Assembly: GCA_902611175.1 (NCBI GenBank)
Contig: CACLYQ010000003.1
Location: 1-63,529, forward strand
DNA length: 63,529 nucleotides
Direction of reading: 5' to 3'
Source: an uncultured Pelagibacteraceae bacterium
GTDB lineage: Bacteria; Pseudomonadota; Alphaproteobacteria; Pelagibacterales; Pelagibacteraceae
Positions 10,101 to 52,647 of the stretch are shown here, in pieces. Numbering within the stretch: the first letter of the stretch is position 1; every line of letters begins with the position of its first letter. The notes beneath the pieces were generated by a model. The model worked only from the letters and a program-made list of their open reading frames with translations, ran no database searches and was not told where the DNA came from. The position numbers and the translations under genes were made by a program.

Positions 10101-10126
10101 TAAGTGGGGATGAAAATCCCCACTTA
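10101..10126 (+). terminator. hairpin between substrate-binding protein and permease genes
   Basis: A perfect 10-bp stem (TAAGTGGGGA with TCCCCACTTA) and a 6-nt loop TGAAAA lie 11 nt after the SBP stop and 8 nt before the permease start. It lacks a long T-run, so it is more likely an mRNA 3'-stabilising or partial attenuation element than a full terminator. It is one of five such structures after the five SBP genes in this window. Confidence 0.75.
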
Positions 10127-10134
10127 TTACATTA

Positions 10135-11163
10135 ATGCCTAACAAAACTTTTTTTTGGTTTTTCTTGCCAACTGGATTGGCAATGATTTTATTTATAGGT
10201 CTTCCTATTATTTCAACAGGGATACAATCATTTTATGCGCAGCACGACCAAGTTGTTAAGGAAGTAAAAAAATGTGATCCTTTTGGATGTACAGTTTCTA
10301 TAGTTGTTGACCAAGAAAAAACCTCTAAAATTCGAGAAGAAAAGCCTTTAGGAAAATTCAATGGATTTGGGACTTATGTAGATAGAAATCATCTTGCAAT
10401 AGAAGAAATTGGAAAATTTTGGAATGAAACAAATACTTTTGGGGAATTTGTAGATCAAGTTACCAACCTACCCTTTTACAAGGCTCTAATTTTTACTTTA
10501 ACCTATTGCTTGTTTGTAACGCCTAACGTCTTACTTTTAGGTTTTATAATTGCTTTAAGTCTTAATGCAGTAACTAGAAGAATTAGAGGACCACTAATAT
10601 TTGGAACCATATTGCCGATGATTGTTACTCCATTGGTAGGTTCTTTAGTTTTATTTTGGATGATAGATGCAGAAGGAATTATTGGAGCGAATTTGCAAAT
10701 GTTGATGGATGACCCTTATTTATCCTTAAAATCCTCAAAAACTCTTACTTGGATAACTATAATAATTTATGGAATTTGGCACCATTCACCATTTGCTTTT
10801 GTAGTATTTTATGCAGCTTTACAAACTGTTCCTCAAGAACCTGTTGAGGCAGCTATTATTGATGGAGCATCAAGATGGCAGAGAGTAAGACATATTGTTT
10901 TACCTCATATTTATCCTGTAGTTACATTTGTTGCTCTCATATCCTTGATGGATAATTTTAGAGTTTTTGAGCCTATAATTGGTTTTAGTGCTGAAGGAAG
11001 TGCTCAATCTTTATCTTGGTTAATTTATGATAACCTCGTTAATGAGGAAGTAATATTATTTGGTTCGGCCGCAGCCACCTCAATGATGACGATTGTTGGG
11101 ATAGCCATACTTTTAGCACCAGTTTTAATAAGAACATGGAAGGAATTTAGGACAGCGAGATAA
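10135..11163 (+). CDS. CUT1 sugar ABC transporter permease (MalF/UgpA type)
   Basis: A 342-residue inner-membrane protein with about six helices. The cytoplasmic coupling loop EAAIIDGASRWQRVRHIVLP (EAA motif, about 243-262) docks the ATPase. A long polar stretch after the first helix (about 30-115, containing CDPFGC) is larger than usual and should face the periplasm. The gene lies 8 nt downstream of the SBP hairpin and abuts the second permease, which starts directly after its stop. No ATP-binding gene of this transporter class is present nearby, so a shared or distant MalK-type ATPase must power it. Confidence 0.88.
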   Translation: MPNKTFFWFFLPTGLAMILFIGLPIISTGIQSFYAQHDQVVKEVKKCDPFGCTVSIVVDQEKTSKIREEKPLGKFNGFGTYVDRNHLAIEEIGKFWNETNTFGEFVDQVTNLPFYKALIFTLTYCLFVTPNVLLLGFIIALSLNAVTRRIRGPLIFGTILPMIVTPLVGSLVLFWMIDAEGIIGANLQMLMDDPYLSLKSSKTLTWITIIIYGIWHHSPFAFVVFYAALQTVPQEPVEAAIIDGASRWQRVRHIVLPHIYPVVTFVALISLMDNFRVFEPIIGFSAEGSAQSLSWLIYDNLVNEEVILFGSAAATSMMTIVGIAILLAPVLIRTWKEFRTAR

Positions 11164-12045
11164 ATGGAATACGGACTTGATAAAAGATCAAATGCTTTAA
11201 AAATTTTTAATACAACCTTTATAATAGTTTGGCTTTTGGTTGCATGCTTTCCCTTTATTTGGACTTTCTGGGGGTCATTTAAAGTAAGAGCTGATTTTTT
11301 TTCAAGAGCCGACTGGTGGTATGCTATTACGGCATTCAATACGTTGTTAGAAACTGGAGGAAAGTTTACAACAGATGCTTATAGTCAAGCATGGACTGAA
11401 GGAGAGTTTTGGAAAGCATCTAGGAATACAGTTATAGTTACATTTTTTGTTGTAACCATTTCATTGTTCCTCGGGACCTTAGGAGCTTATGCTTTATCCA
11501 GATCAACAAGAAATTATGCATTTTGGATTTTAATTGCGGCATTAATTTTTAGAGCAATGCCACACATTACTCTAGTCTCTGGTTATTTATTTCCCTTTTT
11601 TCAATTACAAATTTGGGGAATACTACCTACGACCATCGTTGTTCTTGTTGCGATAAATCAACCATTTACTTTATGGTTATTGTATTCATTTTTTAAAACT
11701 GTTCCTAAAGAACTTGATGAAAGTGCTTTAATTGATGGCTGTTCTTATTTTCAAGCATTTAGACATATCATTATGCCAGTTATGTGGCCTGGAGTAATAA
11801 CAGCTGGATTATTTAGTTTAATGCTTGCGTATAACGATTTTACTGTGACTGCTCTTTTATTGAATCAGGAAAATCATACTATGGTTCCTAAAATACAAAG
11901 TTATCTTGGAACAAATCAACATGAAGGTAATTTGATGTGGGCTGTTTCAGCAGTTGTTTCAGCTACTGCTCCTTTATTTATGTTAGTTATGTTTTTCCAA
12001 AGACAAGTAATCAGTGGATTAACAGCTGGTGCTGTGAAGGGATAA
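11164..12045 (+). CDS. CUT1 sugar ABC transporter permease (MalG/UgpE type)
   Basis: A 293-residue inner-membrane permease, partner of the preceding gene, with about six helices. The EAA-type coupling loop is ELDESALIDGCSYFQAFRHI (about 182-201). It starts with ATG immediately after the upstream stop and overlaps the following HAD gene by one base (TAATG), so translation is tightly coupled across the operon. It lacks any ATPase domain. The heterodimeric permease should import the ligand delivered by the 8869-10089 binding protein. Confidence 0.88.
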   Translation: MEYGLDKRSNALKIFNTTFIIVWLLVACFPFIWTFWGSFKVRADFFSRADWWYAITAFNTLLETGGKFTTDAYSQAWTEGEFWKASRNTVIVTFFVVTISLFLGTLGAYALSRSTRNYAFWILIAALIFRAMPHITLVSGYLFPFFQLQIWGILPTTIVVLVAINQPFTLWLLYSFFKTVPKELDESALIDGCSYFQAFRHIIMPVMWPGVITAGLFSLMLAYNDFTVTALLLNQENHTMVPKIQSYLGTNQHEGNLMWAVSAVVSATAPLFMLVMFFQRQVISGLTAGAVKG

Positions 12046-12704
12046 TGAATTACAAAGCTGTTTTATTTGGTTCTATTGGAACTTTAGCTGAGACATCAGA
12101 TCTTCAAAGAGATGCATTTAATCAAGCTTTTAAAATAAGTGGATTAGACTGGTTTTGGGATGAAGATATATACAGAAAACTATTGTCAAAATCAGGTGGA
12201 ACTACGAGAATCAATGATTACGCAAAAGATACTAGTGTTGAAATAGACGGAAAAAAAATAAGAAATTTAAAAACCAAAATTTTTAATGAATATTTAAACA
12301 AACACAAGGTTGAGCCCAGAGACGGTGTAAAAGAAATAATTCAATTTTGTAAAAAGAACAAAATAAAAATTGGGCTTGCTAGCTCAACAACGAGTAACAA
12401 TATCAATTCTATTTTTAACTCGTTAAGAGGAAGAATTGAAAAAAAAGATTTTGATTTTATCGGCAATAATGAATTCATATTAAGAGAAAAACCATATCCC
12501 GATATTTATAATTATGCTTTAAAATACTTGAATATTAACTCAGACGAATGTGTGGCAATTGAAGATACAGAAGAAAGTTTAAATTCTGCTTTAAGTGCAG
12601 ACATAAAATGTGTTGCATTTCCTGGAAAATATCACACTCAATACGGATTTGATGGGAACCATTTAAAGGTTAATAAATTATCAAAAAAAATCTTTAATAA
12701 ATAA
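12045..12704 (+). CDS. HAD-superfamily protein with degenerate catalytic motif I
   Basis: A 219-residue CbbY/beta-phosphoglucomutase-like HAD protein. The usual motif F-D-x-D-G-T-L reads F8-G9-S10-I11-G12-T13-L14, so both the nucleophile and the general acid aspartates are missing. Motif II (GLASSTTSNN), the motif III lysine (REKPYPDIY) and motif IV (AIEDTEESLNSA) are retained. Phosphoryl transfer by the normal aspartyl-phosphate route should therefore be impossible, suggesting a binding, regulatory or structural role. The true start is the ATG overlapping the permease stop. A 36-codon upstream extension is a frame artefact over the permease. The end overlaps the convergent LysE gene by 11 bp. 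Confidence 0.8.
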   Translation: MNYKAVLFGSIGTLAETSDLQRDAFNQAFKISGLDWFWDEDIYRKLLSKSGGTTRINDYAKDTSVEIDGKKIRNLKTKIFNEYLNKHKVEPRDGVKEIIQFCKKNKIKIGLASSTTSNNINSIFNSLRGRIEKKDFDFIGNNEFILREKPYPDIYNYALKYLNINSDECVAIEDTEESLNSALSADIKCVAFPGKYHTQYGFDGNHLKVNKLSKKIFNK

Positions 12705-13308
12705 TATCTCTAATAATGTAAAAAACTATACCTGACATAAATATTATAATAAAAATATTTATGTATTTCCAAAAACTTCTATTATTTAATTTGTTTGAGA
12801 AAATCTTAGATAAGTATCCTAAAGAAAAGAAAAATAAAAAAGAAGCTATAGAAGCACCTATTCCAAAGTAAAATTTGTTTTCAATATTAAAGGATTTTGA
12901 GAAATTTCCTAAAAAAAATACTGTATCAGAATATACGTGAGGATTTAAATATGTAAAACCTAAGGTCTTAATAAAGATATTAAATGAGCTCTGTGCTATG
13001 ACATTATTTTTAAATTCTAAAGATCTAAATTTAAATATTTCTTTAATTTTTCCATAAATAAAAAAAGATAAAAAAATAATTAAAAGGATATTTAAAATCA
13101 GCTCCACTACATTATTAAAATAATTAGAAAAATAATTAAATAAAAAGATACCTAAGAAAATTAAAATCAAATCAGATAACGCACAGACTAAGCAAACTAA
13201 AAATATATATTGTTTCTTTAGTCCTTGCTCTATTACAAAAACATTTTGAGGTCCTATTGCAAAAATTAATGTTAAGCCCGTTAAAAAACCTAAAAAAAGG
13301 AAAGACAT
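12694..13308 (-). CDS. LysE/ArgO family amino acid exporter
   Basis: A 204-residue membrane protein with about six helices. The N-terminal LTLIFAIGPQNVFVIEQGL carries the GPQN motif typical of LysE/ArgO basic amino acid exporters, and the C-terminal half contains KTLGFTYLNPHVYSDTVFFL, matching the LNPH motif. The family exports Lys, Arg or analogues and dipeptide-derived excess amino acids. The gene lies 2 bp downstream of the MFS gene on the same strand, so both are probably cotranscribed. Substrate preference cannot be set by sequence alone. Confidence 0.85.
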   Translation of the reverse strand: MSFLFLGFLTGLTLIFAIGPQNVFVIEQGLKKQYIFLVCLVCALSDLILIFLGIFLFNYFSNYFNNVVELILNILLIIFLSFFIYGKIKEIFKFRSLEFKNNVIAQSSFNIFIKTLGFTYLNPHVYSDTVFFLGNFSKSFNIENKFYFGIGASIASFLFFFSLGYLSKIFSNKLNNRSFWKYINIFIIIFMSGIVFYIIRDIIY

Positions 13309-13310
13309 GT

Positions 13311-14480
13311 TTAAGAAACTGATTTTTTATCAGCAACAAAACTTACTAAAATAATTAATATTAAAAAAGGTATACAAATAATATTCATCATTTTCCATCC
13401 AATAGAATTTAGTAAAATTCCAGCAGATAAACTGGCCAAAGCCATAGTTGAAAAAACAATTAAATCATTTATCCCTTGTACTTTAAATTTTTCTTCTTTG
13501 TTATAAGTCAAAACTACTAAGCTGGTACCTGATATAAACAAAAAATTCCAACCGAGACCTAGAAAAATTAATGAGAGCATATAATTAAGATATGTCTGTT
13601 CAAATAAACTTAAAAGAACTGTAATAAAAAAAAATAAAACTCCACCATAAATTATTGCACTGTGTCCATATTTTTTTATTAAATTACCCGTTATTAACGA
13701 CGGTAAAAACATTGCAACTACATGAAATTGTAATACTAACCCAGTTTCTTTTAAGCTCATATTTTCCATAACATGCATACTTAAAGGTGTTGCTGTCATT
13801 AAAAATGACATTACTGCATAAGCAAAAGCAGCTGCGGTAATTGCTTGTAAAAATCTTGGTTGTAATACTATAGATTTTAGATTTCTTACATTTCCTTCCT
13901 TTAGACTATCCTCCTGTACATTTTCTACATTTTTAAAAAAAAATAAAAAAACTCCAGGCATAAAAGATAGGAAAGATAGCAAAAGATAAGAACCAACATA
14001 CAATTGATCTTGAATTAAATCTTTAGTGTAATTTGCAAGAGTTATACCTAAAAATGCAGAAACAATTCCTGCTAACAAGAGAGTAGAAACTGCTTTTGGT
14101 ATTTTGTCTTTTTCAACACTTTCAGCTGCTGCAAATCTATATTGATGATTAAATGCAGCGCCCATTCCAAGAATTAAGCAAGATAGACAAAATAAATTAA
14201 AACTTTTCTGACTAATTGCAAAAGCAGCAAGTAGTCCTGAACAAGAACTTCCGATAGCCGCAAAGACAAAACCATTTCTTCTTCCAATTTTACTCATAAT
14301 ATTTGCCGCTAAAACAGTAAAGCTTGCTGTTCCAACTACGAATAAAGCGGTTGGTAAGGTTGATAAAGATTGATTTGAGCTAATTTGAGAACCAACTATT
14401 CCGCTAAGAAATACTGTTATTGTTGCTGTGGTAAAACCAAATATCTGACTTAACGTAAGTAATGATAAATTTCTGTTCAT
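13311..14480 (-). CDS. major facilitator superfamily transporter
   Basis: A 389-residue protein with about twelve hydrophobic helices. The loop 2-3 region contains MSKIGRRNGFVFAAIG, a form of the MFS G-x3-D/G-R-R motif, and a charged central loop lies at about 190-205. It resembles the poorly characterised group of marine alphaproteobacterial MFS proteins related to drug or metabolite exporters. It is upstream of the LysE-type exporter and divergent from an Asp/Glu racemase-type gene. The substrate is unknown. Confidence 0.8.
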   Translation of the reverse strand: MNRNLSLLTLSQIFGFTTATITVFLSGIVGSQISSNQSLSTLPTALFVVGTASFTVLAANIMSKIGRRNGFVFAAIGSSCSGLLAAFAISQKSFNLFCLSCLILGMGAAFNHQYRFAAAESVEKDKIPKAVSTLLLAGIVSAFLGITLANYTKDLIQDQLYVGSYLLLSFLSFMPGVFLFFFKNVENVQEDSLKEGNVRNLKSIVLQPRFLQAITAAAFAYAVMSFLMTATPLSMHVMENMSLKETGLVLQFHVVAMFLPSLITGNLIKKYGHSAIIYGGVLFFFITVLLSLFEQTYLNYMLSLIFLGLGWNFLFISGTSLVVLTYNKEEKFKVQGINDLIVFSTMALASLSAGILLNSIGWKMMNIICIPFLILIILVSFVADKKSVS

Positions 14481-14563
14481 ATTTAGCGATAATATATTTC
14501 TGCTGTTATTTAAATATCTATATAGATGTTTTGAATTTTAATATAGAAGATATTATTTAAATC

Positions 14564-15265
14564 ATGATTGGAATATTAGGTGGCATGGGAACTCAAGCAG
14601 GCTTAGACTTTTGCGATAAGCTTGCAAAATTAAACAGGGGAAAATTAGATCAAAAATATCCGATGTTTGTCCTCTATAATAAATCAAATACACCACGAAG
14701 AGCAGAGAATTTAAAGCAATACAAAAATGTTTTAAAAGAATTAATTGCTGGTTGTCGAATGCTTGAAAAAAATAAATGCAAGTTTATTGTAATGCCATGT
14801 AACACAGCACATTATTGGCATGAAGATATTCAAAAAAAAATATCTGTACCATTTCTTAGTATGCCAAAAGAAGTATATTTAAACACACAAAAAAGATTTA
14901 AGAAAGATTCAACTATAGGATTGTTATGTACTGAGGCTACTTTGGACACAAAAATCTACCATAAGTATTTTGAAAAAAATTATAATTTGATAAGTCCGAG
15001 TGAAAGATTACAAAAGAGTTCAGTAAATACTGCTATTAAATATGTAAAAAAAGGTAAAGTAAAAGATGCTGAAAAAGCTTTAAGACCAGCGGTTAAATTT
15101 TTAATGAAAAAAAAATGTAAAAAAATTATTCTTGGTTGTACAGAACTACCAATAGCTATTTTTTCATACAAATCTTTTAAAAAAGCAAAAGATTCAAAAT
15201 TATTTATAGACCCAAATCTTTTGTTAGCTCAAGTTTGCATGAAAAAATACAAAAATTTAAAGTAA
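14564..15265 (+). CDS. aspartate/glutamate racemase family protein
   Basis: A 233-residue cofactor-independent racemase-type enzyme. The N-terminus IGILGGMGTQAG and the paired catalytic cysteines in VMPCNTAHYW and IILGCTELPI are the signature of the Asp/Glu/hydantoin racemase family, which moves a proton between two cysteines. The substrate is probably aspartate or a related amino acid, though it is not determined. It is a single gene ending 2 bp before a convergent methyltransferase gene. A 12-bp palindrome (ATCTATATAGAT, 14516-14527) lies in the divergent upstream gap. Confidence 0.85.
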   Translation: MIGILGGMGTQAGLDFCDKLAKLNRGKLDQKYPMFVLYNKSNTPRRAENLKQYKNVLKELIAGCRMLEKNKCKFIVMPCNTAHYWHEDIQKKISVPFLSMPKEVYLNTQKRFKKDSTIGLLCTEATLDTKIYHKYFEKNYNLISPSERLQKSSVNTAIKYVKKGKVKDAEKALRPAVKFLMKKKCKKIILGCTELPIAIFSYKSFKKAKDSKLFIDPNLLLAQVCMKKYKNLK

Positions 15266-15267
15266 AT

Positions 15268-15921
15268 TCAATTTTTTTTATTACAAATAAAATATAATTT
15301 TCTTGGAAATGATCCTTCTTCAAAATACTCAATATTTAAGTTTTTAAATCCATTTGTTAAATTCAGTATTTTATCTTTAGAAAAAAAATGAATAATAAAA
15401 CCATCTATTTCGTATAGATCTTCTCCTCTATGAATTCCTTTTTTATAGTCTCCATCATCAGTATTTCTTACTGTGTAAATATTTAATCCTCCAGGTTTTA
15501 AAATTCTATGAATTTCGCTGTTAAGTTTGTCCAAATCTTTCTGGGTTAAAGCCATGCAATAAAGCATATGTGAATAACAAGCGTCAACTGAATTAGTTTC
15601 AAATGGTAAGTCTTCTCTTATGTCAAATTTTAATGTTGAAATTGAAGATATTAGATTTTCTTTTTTTATTTTTTCATTGATAATTTTAATTCCATTTTCA
15701 CTATAATCTAATGCAGTAACATTTATCGAATTTTTTCCAAAGTAAATGCTATCTCTTCCTAGGCCTGCTCCTAACTCAACAATTTTAGAACAATTGTTTT
15801 CTTTGAAAATATTTAAAGCTTTTTTTGCAGGTAAACTTGGTTCTAAACCAAACATCTCAGGCTTATTTGAGAAATTAGTTTCCCAATGCTGAGATTGTCG
15901 GTTTAAAATATTTTTATCCAA
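15268..15921 (-). CDS. class I SAM-dependent methyltransferase
   Basis: A 217-residue soluble methyltransferase. The SAM-binding glycine loop is VELGAGLGRDSIYFG (about 45-59), followed by the acidic ribose-binding residue in ALDYSENGI and post-II motifs DIREDLPFETNSVDACYSHML and LKPGGLNIYTVRNTDDG. It is broadly similar to TehB/UbiE-type small-molecule methyltransferases. The substrate is unknown. It follows the peroxiredoxin gene by one base on the same strand, so both are likely cotranscribed. Confidence 0.8.
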   Translation of the reverse strand: MDKNILNRQSQHWETNFSNKPEMFGLEPSLPAKKALNIFKENNCSKIVELGAGLGRDSIYFGKNSINVTALDYSENGIKIINEKIKKENLISSISTLKFDIREDLPFETNSVDACYSHMLYCMALTQKDLDKLNSEIHRILKPGGLNIYTVRNTDDGDYKKGIHRGEDLYEIDGFIIHFFSKDKILNLTNGFKNLNIEYFEEGSFPRKLYFICNKKN

Positions 15922-23798: not shown

Positions 23799-23830
23799 TA
23801 GTCTCATTTAACAAAAAAGAGGGAAATAAC

Positions 23831-24820
23831 ATGAAAATCTTTAAAAGAATAATATTTTCTCTAATTTTCGTTTCTTTTGCCAGTGCAAGTTTGGCAGAAA
23901 CAAAAATGAGAATTACACTTCAATTACCATTAAAGGCTCACTTAGGTCAGAACCTTTTGGTGTTTAAAAAAGAATTAGAATCAAGATCAGACATTAAAGT
24001 AGAGATTTACGACTCTGCACAACTTTACAAAGATAAAGAGGTTCCGCAAGCTGTAGGTTCAGGAGCGATCGAAGCTGGTGTTGCATCTATAACAAGATTT
24101 GCAGGAACTAATCCTGAAGTTGATGTTTTCTATCTTCCATTCTTATTTGACTCAGAACAAAAAGTAAGAAAAGCAACTCAAGCTGGATCTGAGATAAGAG
24201 CTATCCTTGATCCTGCAATAGCAAAGACTGGAGCAGTTCCACTTTATTATCAAGCTTATGGATCAGCAATAATGTTATCTAATGGTGGTCCGATGAAAAC
24301 TCCTGCTGACTTTAAAGATAAAAAAATTAGAGTATTTGGAAAAACACTTGGAGCTTTTGTGAGTTCTTTAGGTGGTAAACCAGCATTAATATCTGGATCT
24401 GAGCAATACTTAGCTTACCAAAGAAATACAGTTGATGCAGGTATGACTGGTGTATCTGGTGTAAAATCTAGAAAATTATATCAAGTAATGGATACTTTAA
24501 CTGTTACAAATCATGGCGATATCGAATTCGTTGTTGTTGCTAATGATAAATGGCTAAGCTCATTAACTCAAAAACAAAGAGACGCTATAGCTGAAGCATC
24601 AAAAGTAGCTGAAAAAGCTGTTAGAGATGACATGGCTAACATCGAGGCTGGCGCTTACAAAGAGGCAAAAGCAAATGGAATGAACATTGTAAACCTAAGT
24701 AGTTCTGAAGTTTCTGCTCTTAAAAAAGCATCGTCATCTGTTATTGATGATTACATTTCTAGAACAGGTGGAGCTGGTGGAGTTGGTGATCAACTTGTAA
24801 AAGCTGCAAACAAACTTTAA
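23831..24820 (+). CDS. dctP: TRAP transporter substrate-binding protein (DctP family)
   Basis: A 329-residue periplasmic protein with a signal peptide (residues 1-22, cleavage near SLA/ETKM). It carries DctP landmarks such as YDSAQLYKDKEVPQAVGSGA and the conserved arginine region FKDKKIRVFGKTLGAF. It binds an organic acid, since TRAP ligands usually have a carboxylate that this arginine holds. The ribosome site GAGGGAAAT is strong. A perfect hairpin follows 11 nt after its stop and probably raises its level over the membrane subunits. The neighbouring enzymes suggest a branched or C4-C6 hydroxy/keto acid. Confidence 0.9.
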   Translation: MKIFKRIIFSLIFVSFASASLAETKMRITLQLPLKAHLGQNLLVFKKELESRSDIKVEIYDSAQLYKDKEVPQAVGSGAIEAGVASITRFAGTNPEVDVFYLPFLFDSEQKVRKATQAGSEIRAILDPAIAKTGAVPLYYQAYGSAIMLSNGGPMKTPADFKDKKIRVFGKTLGAFVSSLGGKPALISGSEQYLAYQRNTVDAGMTGVSGVKSRKLYQVMDTLTVTNHGDIEFVVVANDKWLSSLTQKQRDAIAEASKVAEKAVRDDMANIEAGAYKEAKANGMNIVNLSSSEVSALKKASSSVIDDYISRTGGAGGVGDQLVKAANKL

Positions 24821-24831: not shown

Positions 24832-24853
24832 ACCCCGCACTTAAGTGCGGGGT
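24832..24853 (+). terminator. GC-rich hairpin between dctP and dctQ
   Basis: ACCCCGCAC pairs with GTGCGGGGT around a TTAA centre, a perfect 22-nt palindrome followed by TTT. The 3' arm contains GCGGGG, the only Shine-Dalgarno-like sequence ahead of the dctQ ATG at 24860. The hairpin can therefore act both as a partial terminator/stabiliser for dctP mRNA and as a lid over dctQ translation initiation. Confidence 0.8.
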
Positions 24854-33190: not shown

Positions 33191-33220
33191 TACAAGCCCT
33201 TTAATTAAAAAGGGCTTGTA
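33191..33220 (-). terminator. 12-bp hairpin after the peptide-type substrate-binding protein gene
   Basis: TACAAGCCCTTT pairs perfectly with AAAGGGCTTGTA around an AATTAA loop, beginning 9-10 nt after the SBP stop codon. In the transcript the 3' arm is followed by AAAAATAAAATTT rather than a T-run, so partial attenuation or 3' protection of the SBP message is more likely than full termination. It belongs to the five-member set of post-SBP hairpins. Confidence 0.78.
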
Positions 33221-33229: not shown

Positions 33230-34792
33230 TTAGTCAAAGCTCGCAAAACGGAATAACGGCTCGTTATTCGGTCTTATCGGAACATTAACATCTTTTTTTG
33301 CAGCCCAAGATATAACTTGGTGATGTAAAGGAAGATAAGAAATATCATCTTTTACTATTTTCCAAGCTTTAGCTATCGCAGCATTTCTCTTATCTAGGTT
33401 AACTTCACCTTCCATAACTCTTATCGCAGCATCTACATCAGAGTTGCTAAAGTTAACTCTGTTCCAGCTTGCTCCACTTTCATATAAGTAATGGAAAACA
33501 TAATGACTATCTAAAGTTGGAACTCCCCAACCTAACATATAAAAGTCACCTTGATTATCTTTTAGTTCTTTAAAGTGCTTACTTTTTGTTTGGGCAAATA
33601 AATTTACTTTAACACCGATTTTACCTAACATACCAACAACAGCTGTGCATATAGCTTCATCATTTACATATCTGTCATTTGGACATCTAAGCTCAACTTC
33701 AAATCCATTCGGATATCCAGCATCAGCTAGAAGTTTTTTTGCAGCAGCTACATCATAAGGAAGTCTTTTATCAAGTTCTTCTGTGTATCCGTTAACACCT
33801 GGAAAAGTAATTATTCCAGCAGGTTCACTTAAACCTCTCATTACTTTTTTCTTAATTGCTTCAATATCTATAGCTTGATAAAGAGCTTGTCTAACTGCTT
33901 TCTTTTTAAATGGGTTATCACCTGTATTACCTGTTCTAAGTTTATCTGCTCCCTGATCCATTCCAAGGAATATAGTTCTCATTTGAGCAGTGCTTTCAAC
34001 TTTGTGAGCAGGTGAATTTTTAATTCTAGCTAAATCTTGCACAGGTGCATCAGTAACAACATCAATTTCACCAGATAAAAGAGCTGCAACTCTAGTAGCT
34101 GCATTTTTTATAGGTAGTAGATGAATTTCTGTTACTTTGTCATCCTTCATAGTACCCCACCATTTTTTATTACGTTTGAAAACTGTTTTAGTATTTGGTT
34201 CTCTTAATGTAATTTTAAATGGTCCAGTTCCCATAGCATTTGTAGCTGAAAATGTTTCTTGTCCAGCATCCCAGTTCTGCGCCATGACTGCAAAATTCTT
34301 TTCACTCCATTTTTTTGACATTATAAAAATGTTTGAAAGTTGGTTTAAAAGAATTGGATTTGGTTTACTTGTTGTAATTTCTACTGTGTAGTCATTAACT
34401 GCTTTTACACCTGATACTGTACTAATATATTCTTTAAAATCAGATGTTCTTTGTTTTGCTCTTAAAATACTAAATACAACGTCTTCAGATGTAAATGGAG
34501 TTCCATCAGAAAATTTAACATCTTCTCTTAATTTAAAGATCCAAGTATTAGGACCTTGAGTTCTCCACTCTGTTGCTAGTTGAGGTCCAATTTTCATATC
34601 TAATCCTCTGGTAACTAGAGCTTCGTATACTTGTCTAGATACTTGAGTGGTAGGACCTTCGTTTTGAGCATGAGGATCAAGTGTTAAACTATCACCCTGC
34701 ATTGACCATTTAATAGTTTTTGCAAACGTTTGTGTTGGGGCAAAAGCTAGAAAAAAAGCCAATAAAATTTTTATAAAATACCCATACTTCAT
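33230..34792 (-). CDS. ABC transporter substrate-binding protein, family 5 (peptide/nickel type)
   Basis: A 520-residue periplasmic protein with a signal peptide (MKYGYFIKILLAFFLAFA..., cleavage near TFA/KTIK). It shows the family-5 opening IKWSMQGDSLTLDPHAQNE, the region FKLREDVKFSDGTPFTSEDV, which is almost diagnostic, and KKLLADAGYPNGFEVEL. These proteins bind peptides, but also opines, heme, nickel and sugars, so the ligand remains open. It is the first gene of its operon and is followed by a strong hairpin. Confidence 0.92.
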   Translation of the reverse strand: MKYGYFIKILLAFFLAFAPTQTFAKTIKWSMQGDSLTLDPHAQNEGPTTQVSRQVYEALVTRGLDMKIGPQLATEWRTQGPNTWIFKLREDVKFSDGTPFTSEDVVFSILRAKQRTSDFKEYISTVSGVKAVNDYTVEITTSKPNPILLNQLSNIFIMSKKWSEKNFAVMAQNWDAGQETFSATNAMGTGPFKITLREPNTKTVFKRNKKWWGTMKDDKVTEIHLLPIKNAATRVAALLSGEIDVVTDAPVQDLARIKNSPAHKVESTAQMRTIFLGMDQGADKLRTGNTGDNPFKKKAVRQALYQAIDIEAIKKKVMRGLSEPAGIITFPGVNGYTEELDKRLPYDVAAAKKLLADAGYPNGFEVELRCPNDRYVNDEAICTAVVGMLGKIGVKVNLFAQTKSKHFKELKDNQGDFYMLGWGVPTLDSHYVFHYLYESGASWNRVNFSNSDVDAAIRVMEGEVNLDKRNAAIAKAWKIVKDDISYLPLHHQVISWAAKKDVNVPIRPNNEPLFRFASFD

Positions 34793-34853
34793 TTCTCTCT
34801 CCTATATTATTAAAATAAAAATCTAACTTATTAATTATGTAAACTAAAGTGAT

Positions 34854-46007: not shown

Positions 46008-47472
46008 TTTTTTTCTTTCTCTTTATTAATGGAAAACTTAAAGCAATTAAAGATAAAACAAAAAATGTTAAAACTATAGGTCTTTGAAGGAACATTAACC
46101 AGTTTCCATCGAAAATAACAAGCGATTGTCTTAAAGTTCCCTCTACTAATTCACCTAAAATTAAACCTATAATTACAGGTACAACTGAAAATCCATATCT
46201 TCTCATAAAAAAACCAATAACTCCAAATAATAGCATCAACCAAACATCAATAATTGACTGATTTAAAGAATATGTTCCACAAACTGAAACTGCAAAAATC
46301 ATCGGCCATAATAATTTATTCGGAACTAGAGTTATTCTTGCAAATATTTTAGCTCCAAAAAATCCTAATACGAAGAATAAAATATTTGCAATGAGCATTG
46401 ATCCAAATATTCCATAAAGAAACTCAGGTTGCTCTCTAAATAAATCTGGACCAGGTCTTACACCATGTATGATTAATCCTGTAAGTATTACTGCTGTAGT
46501 CGCACTACCAGGAATACCTAAAGCTAGCGTTGGAACCATAGCTCCTCCAGTGGCAGCATTATTTGCTGCTTCAGCTCCAGCTATTCCTTCAATTGATCCT
46601 TTTCCAAAATCTTCAGGTTTTTTTGACCATCTTTTTGCTTCAGCATATCCTATTAATGATGCAACAGTTCCTCCCTCTGCTGGCAAAACACCAATGAATG
46701 ATCCTATGCCGCTAGATCTAATTATTGTTTTCCAAGTTTTTTTATAATCATCGATTGATGGAAGTTTAACTGCCTTTAAAGCTACTCTATTAAATATTTG
46801 ATTAATTAAAGTAGATTGAGTTAACATTTCACTAATAGCAAATAAACCTACTACTACTGGAATAAAACCAACACCTTCAGTCAATTCATTAATTCCAAAT
46901 GTAAACCTATCTATAGATGTCATAAAATCTTTACCAACAGTTGAAATTAGAATTCCAAAAGCTCCAGCAATTAAATTTTTAATAGGACTACCTTCACCAA
47001 TTGATGCAAGCATAGTTAATCCAAAAATTGCTAGAGCAAAATATTCAGGTTGACCGAATTCGTAAGCTAAATTTGCAAGTAAAGGTGCAAAAAATATAAG
47101 AACTACAACACTAGCAATTCCACCAATTACGCTTGAGACAGTTGCCATACCTAAAGCTCTACCAGCTTCTCCTTTTTGTGCCAAAGGGTAACCATCTAAA
47201 CATGTAGCTGCTGCTGCAGGGGTTCCAGGGGTATTTATTAAAATTGCAGTGATCGCACCTCCATAAGTTCCTGCACAATAAATTGCAGTCAGTAATACAA
47301 TTGCAGATAGTGGATCTAGTGTCATCGTAAATGGTAATATTAAAGCACCGCCTGTTGTTGGTCCTAGTCCAGGAAGAACTCCAAGAATTAATCCAAAAAT
47401 TGTTCCAAAAAATAAAACAATTAATAATTTATAACTAAATAAAGGAGCAAAGATTAAACCTAAATTTTCCAT
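46000..47472 (-). CDS. tctA: tripartite tricarboxylate transporter large permease (TctA)
   Basis: A 490-residue, about 12-helix permease of the TTT family. It shows LGVLPGLGPTTGGALILPF, IYCAGTYGGAITAILINTPG with TPAAAATCLDGYPLAQKG, and the matching second-half LGIPGSATTAVILTGLIIHG. These repeats, placed about 250 residues apart, define TctA. It should import a carboxylate, probably a sugar acid given the operon enzymes, using an ion gradient. Its ATG follows the tctB stop by one base. Confidence 0.93.
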   Translation of the reverse strand: MENLGLIFAPLFSYKLLIVLFFGTIFGLILGVLPGLGPTTGGALILPFTMTLDPLSAIVLLTAIYCAGTYGGAITAILINTPGTPAAAATCLDGYPLAQKGEAGRALGMATVSSVIGGIASVVVLIFFAPLLANLAYEFGQPEYFALAIFGLTMLASIGEGSPIKNLIAGAFGILISTVGKDFMTSIDRFTFGINELTEGVGFIPVVVGLFAISEMLTQSTLINQIFNRVALKAVKLPSIDDYKKTWKTIIRSSGIGSFIGVLPAEGGTVASLIGYAEAKRWSKKPEDFGKGSIEGIAGAEAANNAATGGAMVPTLALGIPGSATTAVILTGLIIHGVRPGPDLFREQPEFLYGIFGSMLIANILFFVLGFFGAKIFARITLVPNKLLWPMIFAVSVCGTYSLNQSIIDVWLMLLFGVIGFFMRRYGFSVVPVIIGLILGELVEGTLRQSLVIFDGNWLMFLQRPIVLTFFVLSLIALSFPLIKRKKKND

Positions 47473-47473
47473 T

Positions 47474-47980
47474 TTATCCGTAGTAAAGATTTGTAATAAT
47501 TCCAGGTGGAAATCGTAATCCTAAAATTGTTTCAAAAAATACAAAAACAATTAAAGGAAATATAATTGATACCATTATTAAATAGGTAGCTCTTCTTTCT
47601 CCCCAAAAGTAAGAAACTATGATTGAAAGTAATGCTATGCCTAAAAAGAAATCTAAAAATTTTGAAACAATTATAAAAACTACAAATGAAAGTAAAGTGA
47701 TATAAAATGAATTAGGTAATTTTTTTTCATTTTTCCAGGGATTTTTAAGAGAAATAAAATAAGTTAATAAAGTTAGTGCAATAATTAAAATTAATAGAAC
47801 CTTTGGAAATGTTGCTGGCTGGATACCTCTATTCAATATAGGAGGTACTATATCAAAAGTAAAGGTAAAGTATAATAGGATTGAAGAAATTACTATTATT
47901 ACAGCTGATACAATGAATGAACTTTTAAAAAAAAGGGACAAACTTTTGTTTGTCCCTTTTTCTTTATGTACATCATTCAT
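47474..47980 (-). CDS. tctB: tripartite tricarboxylate transporter small subunit (TctB)
   Basis: A 168-residue protein with four helices (about 20-40, 55-75, 92-120, 130-160), the TctB layout. The ATG at 47980 is the only good start codon, but no Shine-Dalgarno precedes it. Codons 6 to 18 form the hairpin at 47931-47960, followed by a T-run. Either translation starts inside a terminator structure, or a non-ATG start such as the TTG codon 14 is used. It lies 18 bp after the tctC stop. It anchors the TTT system in the membrane. Confidence 0.8.
   Translation of the reverse strand: MNDVHKEKGTNKSLSLFFKSSFIVSAVIIVISSILLYFTFTFDIVPPILNRGIQPATFPKVLLILIIALTLLTYFISLKNPWKNEKKLPNSFYITLLSFVVFIIVSKFLDFFLGIALLSIIVSYFWGERRATYLIMVSIIFPLIVFVFFETILGLRFPPGIITNLYYG
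47931..47960 (-). terminator. intrinsic terminator after tctC, lying inside the tctB start region
   Basis: On the minus strand a perfect 13-bp stem (AAAAGGGACAAAC with GTTTGTCCCTTTT), a four-A loop and an eight-T run form a textbook Rho-independent terminator 38 nt after the tctC stop. It falls within codons 6-18 of the annotated tctB frame. It is expected to stop most transcripts after tctC and to compete with tctB initiation. Confidence 0.82.
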
Positions 47981-47998
47981 TTAAATGTACAAAATTTA

Positions 47999-48973
47999 TT
48001 AATTAATGTAACCCAATGCTTTGAGTTGAGCTGTCATTTCAGCAAGCATTTCTTCCATTTGCTTGCCCCATTCATCTGCACCTACAACACTAGTCTCATC
48101 AAGACCAATTTCTGTTAGGAAATTTTTATAGTAGTTGTGGCTCATAGCTTTCATCATTCCAGCTTCTAGTTGTTTAACTCTGTCTGCTGGAGCACCTTTT
48201 TTAGTTACGAAACCTCTAACAGTAGATAAAGAAACAGGTATCCCTAATTCTTTCGCTGTTGGAGAGTCTCCTATTTTAGCCATTCTATTATTTGCTAATA
48301 CAACTGAAACACAAAGTTTGCCTTCATTAATTTCAGTTAGGGCCTCACCTAAATTTAAAACTCCTACATCAATATCTCCCTTGATTAGATTAGTTTTAAT
48401 TGGCGCAACACCTTTGTAAGCAACAATAGTTGGATCTTTTAATCCACCTTTTTTAGTAAATGCAATTGCACTAACATCATCAATTCCACCAGTGTGAGTT
48501 GTTCCATATTTTAGTGATTTTGATTTTTGCGTGCTAATAAATTTCTTAGCATCTTTAATGTCATTGTTACAGTTAACAACAAATAGTTGAGGATCATCAG
48601 TTCCTCTAGCTAGCGGTTGCATATCACTTATTTTGACTTTTGTTTTACCTAAAGCCATTGATACTGCGTGACCAGTAGTCCAAGTCAAAGTGTGATTGCC
48701 GTCAGCAGGAAGTGTCATCATATAGTCCATAGATGCAGCTCCACCACCACCTTTTTTATTAACCAATTGCATGTCTTGTTTTAAAACTCTTCTTGCTCTT
48801 AACAACATCATTCTAGTAGTAACATCTGTTCCACCACCAAAACCAGCATGAGTAATTGCTTGTATTGGATGACCATCTGCTTTTGCAGATGTAATCATAA
48901 GTGGAAGTGCTACAACGAAAAATTCAGTTACTAAAAAAGCAGCAGCTAAAAATAGTTTAAAGCTTTTTTTCAT
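47999..48973 (-). CDS. tctC: tripartite tricarboxylate transporter substrate-binding protein (TctC/Bug family)
   Basis: A 324-residue periplasmic protein. A signal peptide of about 32 residues ends near TSAKA/DGHP. It contains the Bug-family segments ITHAGFGGGTDVTTRMM, NKKGGGGAASMDYMM and LRKYGTTHTGGIDDVSA-like regions that hold the carboxylate ligand by backbone amides and water. It is followed by a strong terminator-like hairpin, so it should be much more abundant than tctA and tctB. It is divergent from the PdxA-like/enolase-type genes across 69 bp. Confidence 0.9.
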   Translation of the reverse strand: MKKSFKLFLAAAFLVTEFFVVALPLMITSAKADGHPIQAITHAGFGGGTDVTTRMMLLRARRVLKQDMQLVNKKGGGGAASMDYMMTLPADGNHTLTWTTGHAVSMALGKTKVKISDMQPLARGTDDPQLFVVNCNNDIKDAKKFISTQKSKSLKYGTTHTGGIDDVSAIAFTKKGGLKDPTIVAYKGVAPIKTNLIKGDIDVGVLNLGEALTEINEGKLCVSVVLANNRMAKIGDSPTAKELGIPVSLSTVRGFVTKKGAPADRVKQLEAGMMKAMSHNYYKNFLTEIGLDETSVVGADEWGKQMEEMLAEMTAQLKALGYIN

Positions 48974-49042
48974 TATTTCCCTCTTAAGTTAATTTATATT
49001 TAAATATTTAATCATAATCTGTTAGAAACAGTAAGAAAAAAG

Positions 49043-50035
49043 ATGACAAATAAGAAAAAAAATATTGCTTTATTGCTTGGAGATCCATCAGGTATTGGGC
49101 CAGAACTTATATCAAAACTTTTGACCCAAAACGAACTATCGAATGCAAACATTACTGTAATTGGTGAAAAAAATATTCTAAATTCCGGAGATAAAATTTC
49201 AGGAAATAATTCGGACCTAGAAATTGTTACTGATTTTAATGACATAAATTTTGAAAAAAAAAATAAATATTTTTTAGATATCTCTAAGGGTAGCAACAAA
49301 GATTATAATTTATCAGAGTGCTCTGCAGAATCTGGAGAAACAGTTTTAAACGCACTAAATTTAGCACTAGAACTTGCGAAAGAAAAAAAAATTGATGCTA
49401 TAAATTTTGGTCCTTTTAATAAGACAAGCTTAAAATTAGGTGGATGTAAATTTGATGACGAATTACATCATATGGCTGATAAGTTAAACGTAAAAAGTTT
49501 TTTTTGTGAATTTAATGTAGTAGATAATTTTTGGACTGCTCGAGTGACATCTCACATACCTATCAAAGATGTTCCAGAACACATTAAGAAAGATAAAATA
49601 ATGAAGCCTATAAAATTGATTAATGAAGCAATGAAATTAAATGGTATAGAAAATCCAAGAGTTGCTGTTCAAGCTCTAAACCCTCATGCAGAGTTTGGTA
49701 ATGAAGAGCAAGATGAGATAATACCAGCAATAGAAGAGGCAAAAAAACTCGGTATTAATGCTGATGGTCCTTTACCGTGTGATACTTCTTTCATTACAGC
49801 ATTTAAAAATAAAAATCATGATTGCATTGTTGGAATGTATCATGATGCTCTTCAATCTGGACTAAAGGCTTTTGGATTTGATAGAGGGGTAACAGTTCAA
49901 GGTGGTCTTCCAATTCCAATAACAACACCTGCGCATGGTACTGCGTTTGATATTGCTGGAAAAAATCAGGCAAATTTGGAGCCAACATTGCAATCGTTTA
50001 AAATTGCATTAAGAATGGCTCAAAATTTAAATTAA
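49043..50035 (+). CDS. pdxA: PdxA/PdxA2-like 4-hydroxythreonine/tetronate phosphate dehydrogenase
   Basis: A 330-residue metal-dependent NAD dehydrogenase of the PdxA family. It contains IALLLGDPSGIGPELISK, the metal-binding DDELHHMADKL (His pair), CDTSFITAFKNKNHDCIVGMYHDALQSGLK and PITTPAHGTAFDIAGKNQAN. PdxA acts in pyridoxal phosphate synthesis, while PdxA2 acts on 4-phospho-D-erythronate or threonate. The setting next to a dehydratase and a TTT system favours the sugar-acid (PdxA2-like) role, but no matching kinase is visible. It ends directly against the next gene. Confidence 0.83.
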   Translation: MTNKKKNIALLLGDPSGIGPELISKLLTQNELSNANITVIGEKNILNSGDKISGNNSDLEIVTDFNDINFEKKNKYFLDISKGSNKDYNLSECSAESGETVLNALNLALELAKEKKIDAINFGPFNKTSLKLGGCKFDDELHHMADKLNVKSFFCEFNVVDNFWTARVTSHIPIKDVPEHIKKDKIMKPIKLINEAMKLNGIENPRVAVQALNPHAEFGNEEQDEIIPAIEEAKKLGINADGPLPCDTSFITAFKNKNHDCIVGMYHDALQSGLKAFGFDRGVTVQGGLPIPITTPAHGTAFDIAGKNQANLEPTLQSFKIALRMAQNLN

Positions 50036-51211
50036 ATGTCTAAAATTAAAGATATAAGAACAAAAGTATATCAATGGAATGGTAAAACAGTTCCTCCACA
50101 AAATAATTTTTGCACAAATGCATCGGATTTACTCTATGAAAAATCAGATGCCATGGGTTCTTTCAGATTTCATGAATGGTTAATTTGTGAAATTGAAACT
50201 GATGATGGTCATATTGGAATTGGTAATGCAGCTCTTGCACCTCAGTTAGTAAAAAAAACTATTGATGAGTATCTTAAACCATTAGCTATAGGGGAAGATC
50301 CTTTTGATTATACTTACATCTGGGAAAAAATGTATAGAAGAACTCATGCATGGGGAAGAAGAGGTTTGGGTATGGTTGCAATATCTGCAATTGATATTGC
50401 TATTTGGGATATATTAGGAAAGTTAACTAACAAACCCGTATTTAAATTGTTAGGGGGTAGAACAAAAGAAAAGATACCTGTTTATGCATCAAAACTTTAT
50501 AGCCAACCTATCAAAGATTTACAAAATGAAGCTGAAAAATATAAAAAACAAGGTTTTAAAATGTTTAAAATGAGATTTGGTTGGGGGCCAAAAGATGGTC
50601 CTGAAGGTATGAGAAAAAACATTGAACTTGTAGAAGCTGTAAGAGAAGTAATCGGGGATGATACTGACTTAATGTTAGAATGTTATATGGGTTGGAACCT
50701 AGATTATTCTAAAAGAATGATACCTAAATTGTTAAAATTTAATCCAAGATGGTTAGAAGAACCAGTTATTGCTGATGATATTCATGGGTATGCGGAACTG
50801 AATAATATGAACGCTATACCAATTTCTGGGGGAGAACATGAATTTAATCTATTTGGTTTTAAACAATTGTTAGACCTCAAAGCAGTTAGCTACATTCAAT
50901 ATGATAATAATAGAGTTGGTGGATTTACAATCGCTCAGAAAATAAATGCTCTTGCAGAGGCTTATCAAGTTCCAGTAATTCCACATGCAGGTCAAATGCA
51001 TAACTATCATTTAACAATGTCGAATTTTAATTGTCCTATCTCAGAGTTTTTTCCAGTTCATGATGTAGAAATTGGTAACGAACTATTTTATTATATTTTT
51101 GAAGGTGATCCTGCTCCAATAGATGGAATGATAAATCTAGATGATAATGTTCCAGGTCTTGGGCTTAAGATTACAGATAAATATAAATCAGAATTTAAAA
51201 TTATTGAGTAA
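50036..51211 (+). CDS. enolase-superfamily acid-sugar dehydratase, L-rhamnonate dehydratase-like
   Basis: A 391-residue mandelate racemase/muconate lactonising-type enzyme. The capping domain spans about 1-140 and the barrel 145-370. The region [33 protein letters not shown] and [15 protein letters not shown] (catalytic His317) are like L-rhamnonate dehydratase. The metal ligands are E215 (LMLECYMGW), E241 and E267. The first is usually Asp in the relatives I remember, so Glu there is unusual. It would dehydrate the imported acid to a 2-keto-3-deoxy acid. It starts one base after the PdxA-like stop. Confidence 0.83.
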
Positions 51212-52126
51212 TTAATAATTTTCTACTTCATTGATACTTGGCATTGAATTTGCAGCCCCCTCTTTAGTTGTAGAAATGCCAGCAACTTTATTAGAAAATT
51301 CTAATGCATCGACAATTTTTAACGATTTAGCTAATGCCACACTAAAAGCTCCATTAAATGCATCTCCTGCTCCAGTAGTATCTTTTACATCGTCTTTTAA
51401 TTTATGAGCGTCCACAAAATGGCTTTCGTTTCCATTTGAAAAATAAACTCCTTTAGAACCAAGGGTTATTAGAATATTTTTTACTCCTTTTTTTAAAAAT
51501 TCTTTAGCTGCATTTTCTATTTCAGATTTTGTTTCTATTTTCTTTTCTAAATAAAAACTAGCCTCAGTTTCATTTGGTGTAAAATAGTCTATGTTATTAA
51601 AGTCATTCTCAGATATTTTTGAAGCCGGAGCTGGATTTAAAATAGTAATTGATCCAGTATCTTTAGCTTTTTGTAAAGCATAACTAGTAACATCATATGG
51701 TGTTTCTAATTGTGTTAAGAATATATCTGACTTCTCGATTGCTTTTAAATTATTATCTATATCAGAACTATTTAAAGTGCCAGCAGCGCCTGGTATGATG
51801 TTTATTGCATTATCACCCGTATTAGCATTAATCATAATACCAGCAACACCAGTTGAGTGATTTTTATCTTTAATAATATAATCGGTATTTACTCCAGAGG
51901 ATTTATATAAATTTAGCGCCATTTCAGCATTATTATCATCACCTATTTTTGTAATAAAACTTATGTTTCCGCCAAGTCTTGCTGCAGCAATGGCTTGGTT
52001 AGATCCTTTTCCACCAGGTCCTATTAAGTGTTTTGTTCCTAAAATAGTTTGACCCACTTCAGGAATTTTTTCACCAATAAAACATAAGTCTGCAACAAAT
52101 ACTCCAAATACACATATAGATTTCAT
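51212..52126 (-). CDS. rbsK: ribokinase-like PfkB family sugar kinase
   Basis: A 304-residue PfkB-type kinase. It has the N-terminal glycine motif LIGPGGKGSNQAIAAARLGG, ILNPAPA, TPNETEA, and the catalytic block DTTGAGDAFNGAFSVAL near residue 250. The GPGGKGSNQA form is typical of ribokinase. In the inositol setting a 5-dehydro-2-deoxygluconokinase (IolC) is possible but less like the motifs. It is the last gene of the CUT2 ABC run, 4 bp after the RbsD/FucU-like gene, with convergent overlap-free spacing to the dehydratase. Confidence 0.85.
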   Translation of the reverse strand: MKSICVFGVFVADLCFIGEKIPEVGQTILGTKHLIGPGGKGSNQAIAAARLGGNISFITKIGDDNNAEMALNLYKSSGVNTDYIIKDKNHSTGVAGIMINANTGDNAINIIPGAAGTLNSSDIDNNLKAIEKSDIFLTQLETPYDVTSYALQKAKDTGSITILNPAPASKISENDFNNIDYFTPNETEASFYLEKKIETKSEIENAAKEFLKKGVKNILITLGSKGVYFSNGNESHFVDAHKLKDDVKDTTGAGDAFNGAFSVALAKSLKIVDALEFSNKVAGISTTKEGAANSMPSINEVENY

Positions 52127-52130
52127 TTAA

Positions 52131-52592
52131 TTAAGACCAGACTTTACCGTCAGGAAGAATAACTCCTTTAGTAATAATAAAACATCCAAAAGGTCGAGCA
52201 TCTGTAGTGGTTACAATACAATATGCTTTTTTTGCTTCTTCATAAAAATTTTGTCTTGAAATTGATCCAACTTTCCATTGGGGACCAGAATTATTTTTTA
52301 CTGCTTCAATAAATTCTTTATGAGTTTCAGTTAGTTCCTTTGGATTATCATCTACTTCCATTCTAAGAGCAGGTGAGCCCCCTTGTGATACGATAAAACT
52401 ATCTAATGGAAAAACAGATAAAATTGCATTTGCTGCACTTTTAATATCTACCCCATCTAATCGTATTACATTCTTGTTCATAGAGTTTGCAGGAAAATTA
52501 GCATCAGCAAGAATAATTTTCTCACCATGACCCATTGATCTTAAATGAAAAAGTAAATCAGGGCTTAAAACTGGGTTAATATTTATTAACAT
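52131..52592 (-). CDS. RbsD/FucU family sugar mutarotase
   Basis: A 153-residue protein of the RbsD/FucU fold. It contains LININPVLSPDLLFHLRSMGHGEKIILADANFP (with the catalytic-type His) and the C-terminal TTTDARPFGCFIITKGVI. The length and the YCIVTTTDARPFG ending are closer to FucU, the L-fucose mutarotase, than to short RbsD ribose pyranase. These proteins interconvert ring forms of the imported sugar so that the kinase or dehydrogenase can act. A terminator hairpin separates it from the upstream SBP gene. Confidence 0.85.
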   Translation of the reverse strand: MLININPVLSPDLLFHLRSMGHGEKIILADANFPANSMNKNVIRLDGVDIKSAANAILSVFPLDSFIVSQGGSPALRMEVDDNPKELTETHKEFIEAVKNNSGPQWKVGSISRQNFYEEAKKAYCIVTTTDARPFGCFIITKGVILPDGKVWS

Positions 52593-52613
52593 TAAAATAT
52601 TATATTACATAAA

Positions 52614-52647
52614 AAAAAAGGGTGGAATAAAAATTCCACCCTTTTTT
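52614..52647 (-). terminator. strong hairpin after the CUT2 substrate-binding protein gene
   Basis: GGGTGGAAT pairs with ATTCCACCC around an AAAA loop, and flanking A6/T6 tracts extend the stem to 15 bp and give a T-rich tail in both directions. It lies 19 nt after the SBP stop and before the mutarotase gene. It has the full form of an intrinsic terminator, so rbsD/rbsK expression would depend on read-through. Confidence 0.85.

Follow-up and report, generated by a model that had tools for sequence, protein, structure and literature searches.

How does the streamlined genome of a SAR11 bacterium set the binding protein of an uptake system above its translocator? We found no DNA-level answer in the literature searched. 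The question is raised by a stretch of 63,529 nucleotides (nt) at 30.5% G+C (hereafter the window; contig CACLYQ010000003.1 of assembly GCA_902611175.1) from an uncultured Pelagibacteraceae bacterium of the SAR11 clade, whose assembly comprises 970,553 bases in 52 contigs and is 73% complete. The window carries five genes for solute-binding proteins (SBPs), each preceded by a strong Shine-Dalgarno sequence and followed by a strong hairpin. Both elements recur at most SBP genes sampled in four SAR11 genomes, and together they probably serve to make the binding protein in excess over the membrane subunits.

Strong hairpins behind all five binding-protein genes of the window

A preliminary description of the window, drawn up from its letters, had placed a perfect hairpin behind the SBP genes of five transporter families. 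All five hairpins lie at the positions given there, and Pfam assigns the genes to five SBP families of ATP-binding cassette (ABC) importers, a tripartite ATP-independent periplasmic (TRAP) transporter and a tripartite tricarboxylate transporter (TTT):

8856-8861, plus strand: Shine-Dalgarno sequence GAGGGA of the CUT1 SBP gene; anti-Shine-Dalgarno duplex -6.1 kcal/mol
8869-10089, plus strand: CUT1-type ABC SBP (SBP_bac_1; PF01547, E 1.1e-15); start 8869 set by the gene caller, signal-like N-terminus
10101-10126, plus strand: perfect 11-bp hairpin, -18.2 kcal/mol; weak U-tract, 4 T in 8 nt
23819-23824, plus strand: Shine-Dalgarno sequence GAGGGA of dctP; duplex -6.3 kcal/mol
23831-24820, plus strand: TRAP solute-binding protein DctP (PF03480, E 1e-52)
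24832-24853, plus strand: perfect 9-bp GC-rich hairpin, -17.6 kcal/mol; the dctQ ATG (24860) follows 6 nt on
33191-33220, minus strand: perfect 12-bp hairpin behind the family-5 SBP gene, -18.3 kcal/mol; no U-tract, 2 T in 8 nt
33230-34792, minus strand: family-5 ABC SBP (SBP_bac_5; PF00496, E 1.9e-86)
34797-34802, minus strand: Shine-Dalgarno sequence GGAGAG of the family-5 SBP gene; duplex -7.3 kcal/mol
47931-47960, minus strand: perfect 13-bp hairpin (14 with the next pair) behind tctC, -20.0 to -22.2 kcal/mol depending on the stretch folded
47999-48973, minus strand: TTT binding protein TctC (PF03401, E 5.7e-19)
48978-48983, minus strand: Shine-Dalgarno sequence GAGGGA of tctC; duplex -6.3 kcal/mol
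52614-52647, minus strand: perfect 15-bp hairpin behind the CUT2 SBP gene, -20.5 kcal/mol; U-tract, 9 T behind the GC core
52667-53599, minus strand: CUT2-type ABC SBP (Peripla_BP_4; PF13407, E 4.6e-63)
53605-53610, minus strand: Shine-Dalgarno sequence AGGGGA of the CUT2 SBP gene; duplex -7.9 kcal/mol

The CUT1 stem measures 11 bp once its outer T-A pair is included, rather than the 10 bp first described; the other four lengths stand. Distances from SBP stop codon to hairpin are 11 (CUT1), 11 (dctP), 9 (family 5), 38 (tctC) and 19 nt (CUT2). With 9-15 bp, 5-7 G-C pairs and loops of 4-6 nt, all five have the stem of an intrinsic terminator. The U-tract of a Rho-independent terminator is less regular, the 8 nt behind the hairpins holding 8, 8, 4, 4 and 2 T; the tctC hairpin is among those with 8 T behind the GC core. 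At dctP, the 9 bp and 4-nt loop make all 22 nt one complete palindrome.

We scored each gene end by its best 36-nt fold energy within the first 70 nt 3' of the stop codon. The five SBP ends reached -17.6 to -20.5 kcal/mol and no other gene end in the window went beyond -9.6, so that a strong 3' hairpin followed 5/5 SBP genes vs 0/69 other testable genes. This bears out the preliminary description, which had noted no comparable hairpin in the other gaps. Chance origin was ruled out: at each of the five, 0 of 1000 dinucleotide shuffles folded as strongly as the real sequence. Copies of a single repeat were also ruled out, as the stems and loops bear no relation to each other. Of the five, a simple terminator scan reported 52647-52614 alone on the transcribed strand. 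It picked up the tctC stem solely on the other strand, and the remaining hairpins do not pass its rules for tail and loop.

The location of such elements between transporter subunits might suggest that each gap holds a riboswitch or attenuator, a regulatory RNA that responds to a ligand. These are single short stems of unrelated sequence and loop, however, and the window and four other stretches, 143,529 bases in all, gave no Rfam match at gathering score, which makes such an RNA scarcely credible here.

The junctions are not all of the simple SBP-permease kind first described. The tctC hairpin sits within the predicted 5' end of tctB (open reading frame (ORF) 47474-47980), leaving no clean gap. 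In the CUT2 unit, the ATPase and permease genes come first, then the SBP gene, then an RbsD/FucU-type gene and a PfkB kinase gene; the hairpin therefore parts the SBP from the RbsD/FucU-type gene and not from the permease. The upstream CUT2 genes, assigned by Pfam, are:

53707-54756, minus strand: CUT2 permease (BPD_transp_2)
54722-55471, minus strand: CUT2 ATPase (ABC_tran)

Enrichment across four SAR11 genomes

The preliminary description had proposed a genome-wide comparison of SBP genes with other genes, which we carried out on samples of four SAR11 genomes. The own-genome sample joined the window to 20 further stretches (429,867 bases in all), with genes called by a hexamer model. SBP labels were assigned by Pfam, blind to hairpins, on signal-peptide and phmmer candidates; SBPs overlooked by this filter are possible and would be counted among the others. 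One TctC (L222:5321) below the Pfam cut-off (24.4 vs 27 bits) was retained as an SBP, and a Peripla_BP_6 gene was left out because it lies at the end of contig C7, with no sequence behind it.

Fold energies in the own-genome sample were split, with 24 gene ends at -14.6 kcal/mol or stronger and the next at -11.6. Strong hairpins followed 16/19 SBP genes vs 8/408 others. Because this sample had partly been picked around SBPs, we ran the comparison again on stretches taken at regular intervals from three other Pelagibacteraceae genomes, which gave 6/7 vs 15/397, 3/3 vs 9/400 and 6/8 vs 11/422 (summed, 15/18 vs 35/1219). Pooled over the four genomes, 31/37 SBP genes and 43/1627 others had a strong hairpin (Fisher p 2e-39); some hairpins scored for the others fall inside the next coding sequence. 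Two Peripla_BP_6/LppC-like genes without a strong hairpin (L210:1312 and L216:5832) were left among the others, and counting them as SBPs makes the pooled figure 31/39. The hairpin-bearing SBPs span ten Pfam families: SBP_bac_1, SBP_bac_3, SBP_bac_5, SBP_bac_8, OpuAC, Peripla_BP_4, Peripla_BP_6, DctP, NMT1_3 (TAXI) and TctC.

Longer gaps merely giving room for a stem were ruled out as the full cause: in same-strand gaps of at least 35 nt, 25/27 SBPs vs 15/302 others had a hairpin (the median SBP gap is 54 nt, over 29 SBPs). Nor is the hairpin a feature of exported proteins generally, as it followed 10/305 other exported-like genes vs 31/37 SBPs.

It might also be that these are ordinary ends of transcription units, with SBP genes transcribed alone and the next genes served by promoters of their own. 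Five of the 37 SBPs do face convergent genes, and all five have the hairpin. Most other gene ends lack one, however, convergent ones included (23/435). There is also little room behind the internal hairpins, which stand at 26 of the 32 same-strand SBP junctions: the median distance from GC core to next start is 27 nt, and in 9/26 it is 15 nt or less. We therefore give ordinary unit ends long odds.

A strong Shine-Dalgarno sequence on the same genes

All five SBP genes of the window have a strong Shine-Dalgarno sequence, defined as an anti-Shine-Dalgarno duplex of -6 kcal/mol or stronger. In the four genomes this holds for 29/37 SBPs vs ~9% of 1467 other genes. Other genes with an upstream gap of at least 30 nt reach it in 47/577 cases, and shuffled SBP upstream sequences in 6%. 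Gene starts came from our own caller, whose slight bonus for a Shine-Dalgarno sequence acts against this contrast. The near-chance background (~9% vs 6% shuffled) suggests that most SAR11 genes start translation without a Shine-Dalgarno sequence. SAR11 genes thus generally show little of it, SBP genes show it strongly and the genes directly 3' of SBPs mostly lack it (strong in 2/31).

One of the two exceptions among these followers is dctQ of the window, whose G run—the sole Shine-Dalgarno-like run upstream of it—lies in the 3' arm of the dctP hairpin. This raises the prospect that the hairpins chiefly mask the start region of the downstream gene and so damp its translation. The tctC hairpin overlaps the predicted start region of tctB, and the GC cores that end within 15 nt of the next start may indeed also hinder translation of that gene. 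The other 17/26 internal hairpins lie farther away, however, and SBPs at convergent junctions have hairpins as well, making damping as the chief role distinctly improbable.

Conservation at dctP and tctC

The closest relatives of the window DctP come from uncultured Pelagibacteraceae single cells and bins, many 100% identical over the best protein segment; HIMB114 stands at 86%. Among the best 80 of 156 relatives, which are mostly close, every locus (80/80) had a hairpin of -15.6 kcal/mol or stronger at the same place. Most of them are near-identical SAR11 copies, with 32 distinct 60-nt sequences in 73 SAR11 loci. In the divergent loci, including two AT-rich ones from outside SAR11 (L129 and L130), the stem sequence is wholly replaced while the hairpin and its place are retained. 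Five GC-rich loci (L124-L128) also fold strongly and are less informative.

We swapped arms among 14 divergent DctP hairpins: hairpins with their own arms averaged -18.0 kcal/mol and swapped ones -7.2. The hairpin thus persists through turnover of its sequence. What follows the stem is freer, DctP relatives keeping the stem while their tails range from TTTTT to none. A class-wide set of 30 DctP loci (L161-L190) contained two AT-rich loci, both with a strong hairpin and one (L178) itself from SAR11; fold energies of its GC-rich loci are not comparable, and antisense ORFs seem to have been picked in part.

For TctC, 25 of 29 readable loci (of 30) in the SAR11 family reached -14.6 kcal/mol or stronger, scored over 44 nt. 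In about half of these loci the stem seems to extend over the beginning of tctB. A second small stem (TGTACAT...ATGTACA) lies upstream of the strong hairpin in the window (47931-47998, minus strand) and encloses the predicted tctB start codon; the arrangement is similar in two relatives (L153 and L157), while a further group of relatives seems to have a single long stem across that start.

Consistency with published expression data

Table 2 of PMC5069720 lists, in 36 rows, the genes of the cultured strain HTCC7211 with most reads in Red Sea water. We read the corresponding gene ends from genome G035; of the 24 rows examined, 23 matched it to within one base. The six SBP genes in the table, assigned to SBP families by Pfam (potD, tauA, opuAC, dctP, PB7211_130 and yhdW), all precede a hairpin that folds at -17 kcal/mol or stronger and leads into a run of U. 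Four of the six are followed by a translocator subunit gene, and no membrane or ATPase subunit of a transporter that depends on a binding protein is named in the 36 rows. Among 17 most-read non-SBP genes, five had a hairpin of -14.6 kcal/mol or stronger (hupA, a xanthine/uracil permease gene, bacteriorhodopsin, the yjcG symporter gene and groL); ompA, also in the table and found in a later stretch, has one too. Hairpins are thus enriched among highly transcribed genes and near-regular only in SBPs.

Under iron limitation, mRNAs of 'Ca. P. ubique' rose 16.0-fold for sfuC, 10.4-fold for sfuB and 5.0-fold for sfuA, an increase that declines along the operon; in the available part of that report (PMC2864753), SfuC protein was up, no rise was seen for SfuA and SfuB, and SfuB peptides were never detected. 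As far as these sources extend, published SAR11 transcript data are consistent with, and do not prove, SBP transcripts exceeding those of the translocator.

How the two elements may act

We favour, at a probability of about 0.72, the reading that hairpin and Shine-Dalgarno sequence together cause SBPs to be made in excess over the membrane subunits. Each SBP gene would form a high-expression cassette, opened by a strong Shine-Dalgarno sequence and closed, directly past the stop codon, by a strong hairpin with a GC core. RNA polymerase traversing the transporter operon would halt at the hairpin part of the time, through leaky Rho-independent termination, where a U-tract follows. The hairpin would also keep 3'-5' exonucleases from attacking the SBP message at its 3' end, and this would be its main effect where the U-tract is absent. 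The other transcripts would continue into the genes behind, most of which lack a Shine-Dalgarno sequence and about one third of which start within 15 nt of the stem. SBP would thereby exceed the membrane subunits, all from one shared message. Termination, 3' protection and the protein ratio are the steps that we infer.

What follows the stems bears on the balance between these effects. Of the 26 operon-internal SBP hairpins, 16 have at least 6 T in the 8 nt behind the GC core, and the mean is 6.0 T vs ~3.2 expected (39.8% T in gaps). This spread fits a mixture of leaky terminators and protect-only stems. The nucleases that malE-type protection calls for, RNase E and a 3'-5' exonuclease, are encoded: in 21 related genomes, some incomplete, curated cut-offs were passed by RNase E/G in 20/21 and PNPase in 18/21, and by Rho in 17/21, each time with the window genome among those that passed.

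The hairpins might instead be pure mRNA protectors of the malE type: transcription would run through, RNase E would cut behind the hairpin, the stem would block 3'-5' exonucleases and the SBP segment alone would persist. The nuclease genes speak for this, as do the better conservation of stem than of U-tract among DctP relatives, the T-poor tails of some internal hairpins and, in E. coli, the finding that in five ABC operons it is the SBP gene that is stabilised (PMC5927463, as far as its available text goes). The T-rich tails of 16/26 internal hairpins and the long U runs behind all six SBPs of the HTCC7211 table speak against it, and we regard pure protection as unlikely, if still worth weighing.

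Exceptions and other carriers

Several observations count against production of excess SBP by hairpin and Shine-Dalgarno sequence. Seven of the 26 internal hairpins, three of them in the window, have at most 4 T in 8 nt, so not all resemble good intrinsic terminators. At dctP, 23/182 arm swaps still reached -14 kcal/mol or stronger, and a consensus fold of 18 aligned hairpins yielded no pairs because the stems slip in register, so that the arm-swap test carries the case for covariation by itself. Strong hairpins are missing within 70 nt of 6/37 SBP genes and occur behind non-SBP genes too. Lastly, 12/17 most-read non-SBP genes of HTCC7211 lack a hairpin, so high expression alone does not predict one; ybhL is among the 12, while its Bax1-I relative in genome G040 has one. 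The general rule of the preliminary description, irrespective of family, thus holds in its breadth—it spans ABC, TRAP (DctP and TAXI) and TTT systems—and is less strict than first stated.

Of the six SBP exceptions, two are similar, orthologous-looking SBP_bac_3 genes (L201:5629-6396 and L263:4540-5307) that also lack a strong Shine-Dalgarno sequence. These might be periplasmic enzymes, but their best NCBIfam matches, below cut-off, are amino-acid transport SBPs and speak against it. The other four have a strong Shine-Dalgarno sequence: a second DctP gene (contig C8), two SBP_bac_6 genes and a tctC (L261:789). One of the SBP_bac_6 genes has its hairpin further downstream, behind a cysteine-containing ORF of 57 amino acids (aa) (L044:5173-5346, minus strand) that lies between gene and hairpin. 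This SBP_bac_6 gene is presumably of the iron type, and we take the palindrome upstream of it to resemble a Fur-type operator.

As for the eight non-SBP hairpins of the own-genome sample, one belongs to an SBP gene and was scored from the gene convergent to it, one lies behind the 57-aa ORF next to an SBP and two seem to fall within a neighbouring coding sequence; the remainder follow recA, an SSF symporter gene, a 73-aa ORF 3' of amt and a LysR gene. The ORF behind the ammonium transporter gene is conserved at 73-76 aa (L032:9758-9979 and L236:5279-5509), looks membrane-like by eye and bears the 3' hairpin of the unit; for amt of the HTCC7211 table, the hairpin stands behind the conserved 76-aa ORF. 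In L032 the ORF has no Pfam match and is preceded by a very strong Shine-Dalgarno sequence. A hairpin between an OpuAC-type SBP gene and a convergent TauD/GBBH-like gene (L035:2741-2794) is a strong 3' hairpin for both.

Both elements together mark 48/1609 genes (~3%), 25 of them SBPs. The 23 non-SBP genes include those for proteorhodopsin (3), xanthine/uracil permease (3), SSF symporters (2), Hsp20 (2) and OmpA (2), besides a Bax1-I membrane protein, GcvT, FtsZ, a thiamine pyrophosphate enzyme, a GYD protein, an FAD-binding subunit, two lysine-rich small proteins and four genes without Pfam match or label; in a few of the 23 the stem may fall in the next coding sequence. We propose tentatively, at somewhat less than even odds, that SAR11 genomes hold a two-part DNA signature, rare and set against a Shine-Dalgarno background near chance, which marks many top-expressed genes, foremost the binding proteins in all sampled classes of transporter, and which would allow the expression rank of uptake systems to be read from single-cell genomes. 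Such a family-independent 5' and 3' signature renders the question of SBP excess testable by RNA-seq of cultured strains (e.g. HTCC7211) and provides a way to predict expression in uncultured lineages.

Comparison with known systems

In E. coli and Clostridia the mechanism is already known from ABC importers, as the available portions of the papers describe it. Wu et al. 2022 (PMC9045158) reported internal terminators behind the SBP genes of ABC importers in cellulolytic Clostridia, with termination of 20.7-96.1%, and at least 15 such stem-loops in E. coli. Common to those Clostridia and the SAR11 loci is a stem-loop 3' of the SBP gene with a variable U-tract; in the former, partial termination gives the SBP excess. 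The E. coli work of Dar and Sorek 2018 (PMC5927463) concerns differential decay of the malE-malF type, and shares with our loci a 3' structure at the SBP segment of a transporter operon. Protection was observed there and is proposed here; in contrast, most internal SAR11 hairpins have a U-tract and could terminate, and most sampled SBPs have a hairpin.

Within the SAR11 clade itself, Meyer et al. 2009 (PMC2704228) likewise searched intergenic regions for RNA structure, surveying 'Ca. Pelagibacter ubique' and discussing the rhtB motif as a possible terminator. In the text available, that survey ranked gaps of more than 100 bp, and a lower limit gave few further candidates according to its authors; the SAR11 SBP gaps described above, with their median of 54 nt, are mostly shorter. 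We found no earlier report of an SBP-hairpin rule in SAR11 in a literature search with little coverage of subscription papers.

Compared with the Clostridia, SAR11 is an alphaproteobacterium with a streamlined genome, in which strong 3' hairpins are otherwise few and the same genes have strong Shine-Dalgarno sequences. Wu et al. treated ABC importers, a class to which three of the five window systems belong, dctP (TRAP) and tctC (TTT) being non-ABC; in the available text 'TTT' does not occur and 'TRAP' occurs once, in a reference. TRAP and TTT systems are likewise absent in such a role from the available text of Dar and Sorek. Their terminators were tested in vivo, whereas the SAR11 set is known from its DNA and includes TRAP DctP, TRAP-TAXI and TTT systems. 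What appears to be new is the two-part SAR11 signature and the reach of the mechanism beyond ABC importers, into TRAP, TAXI and TTT systems.

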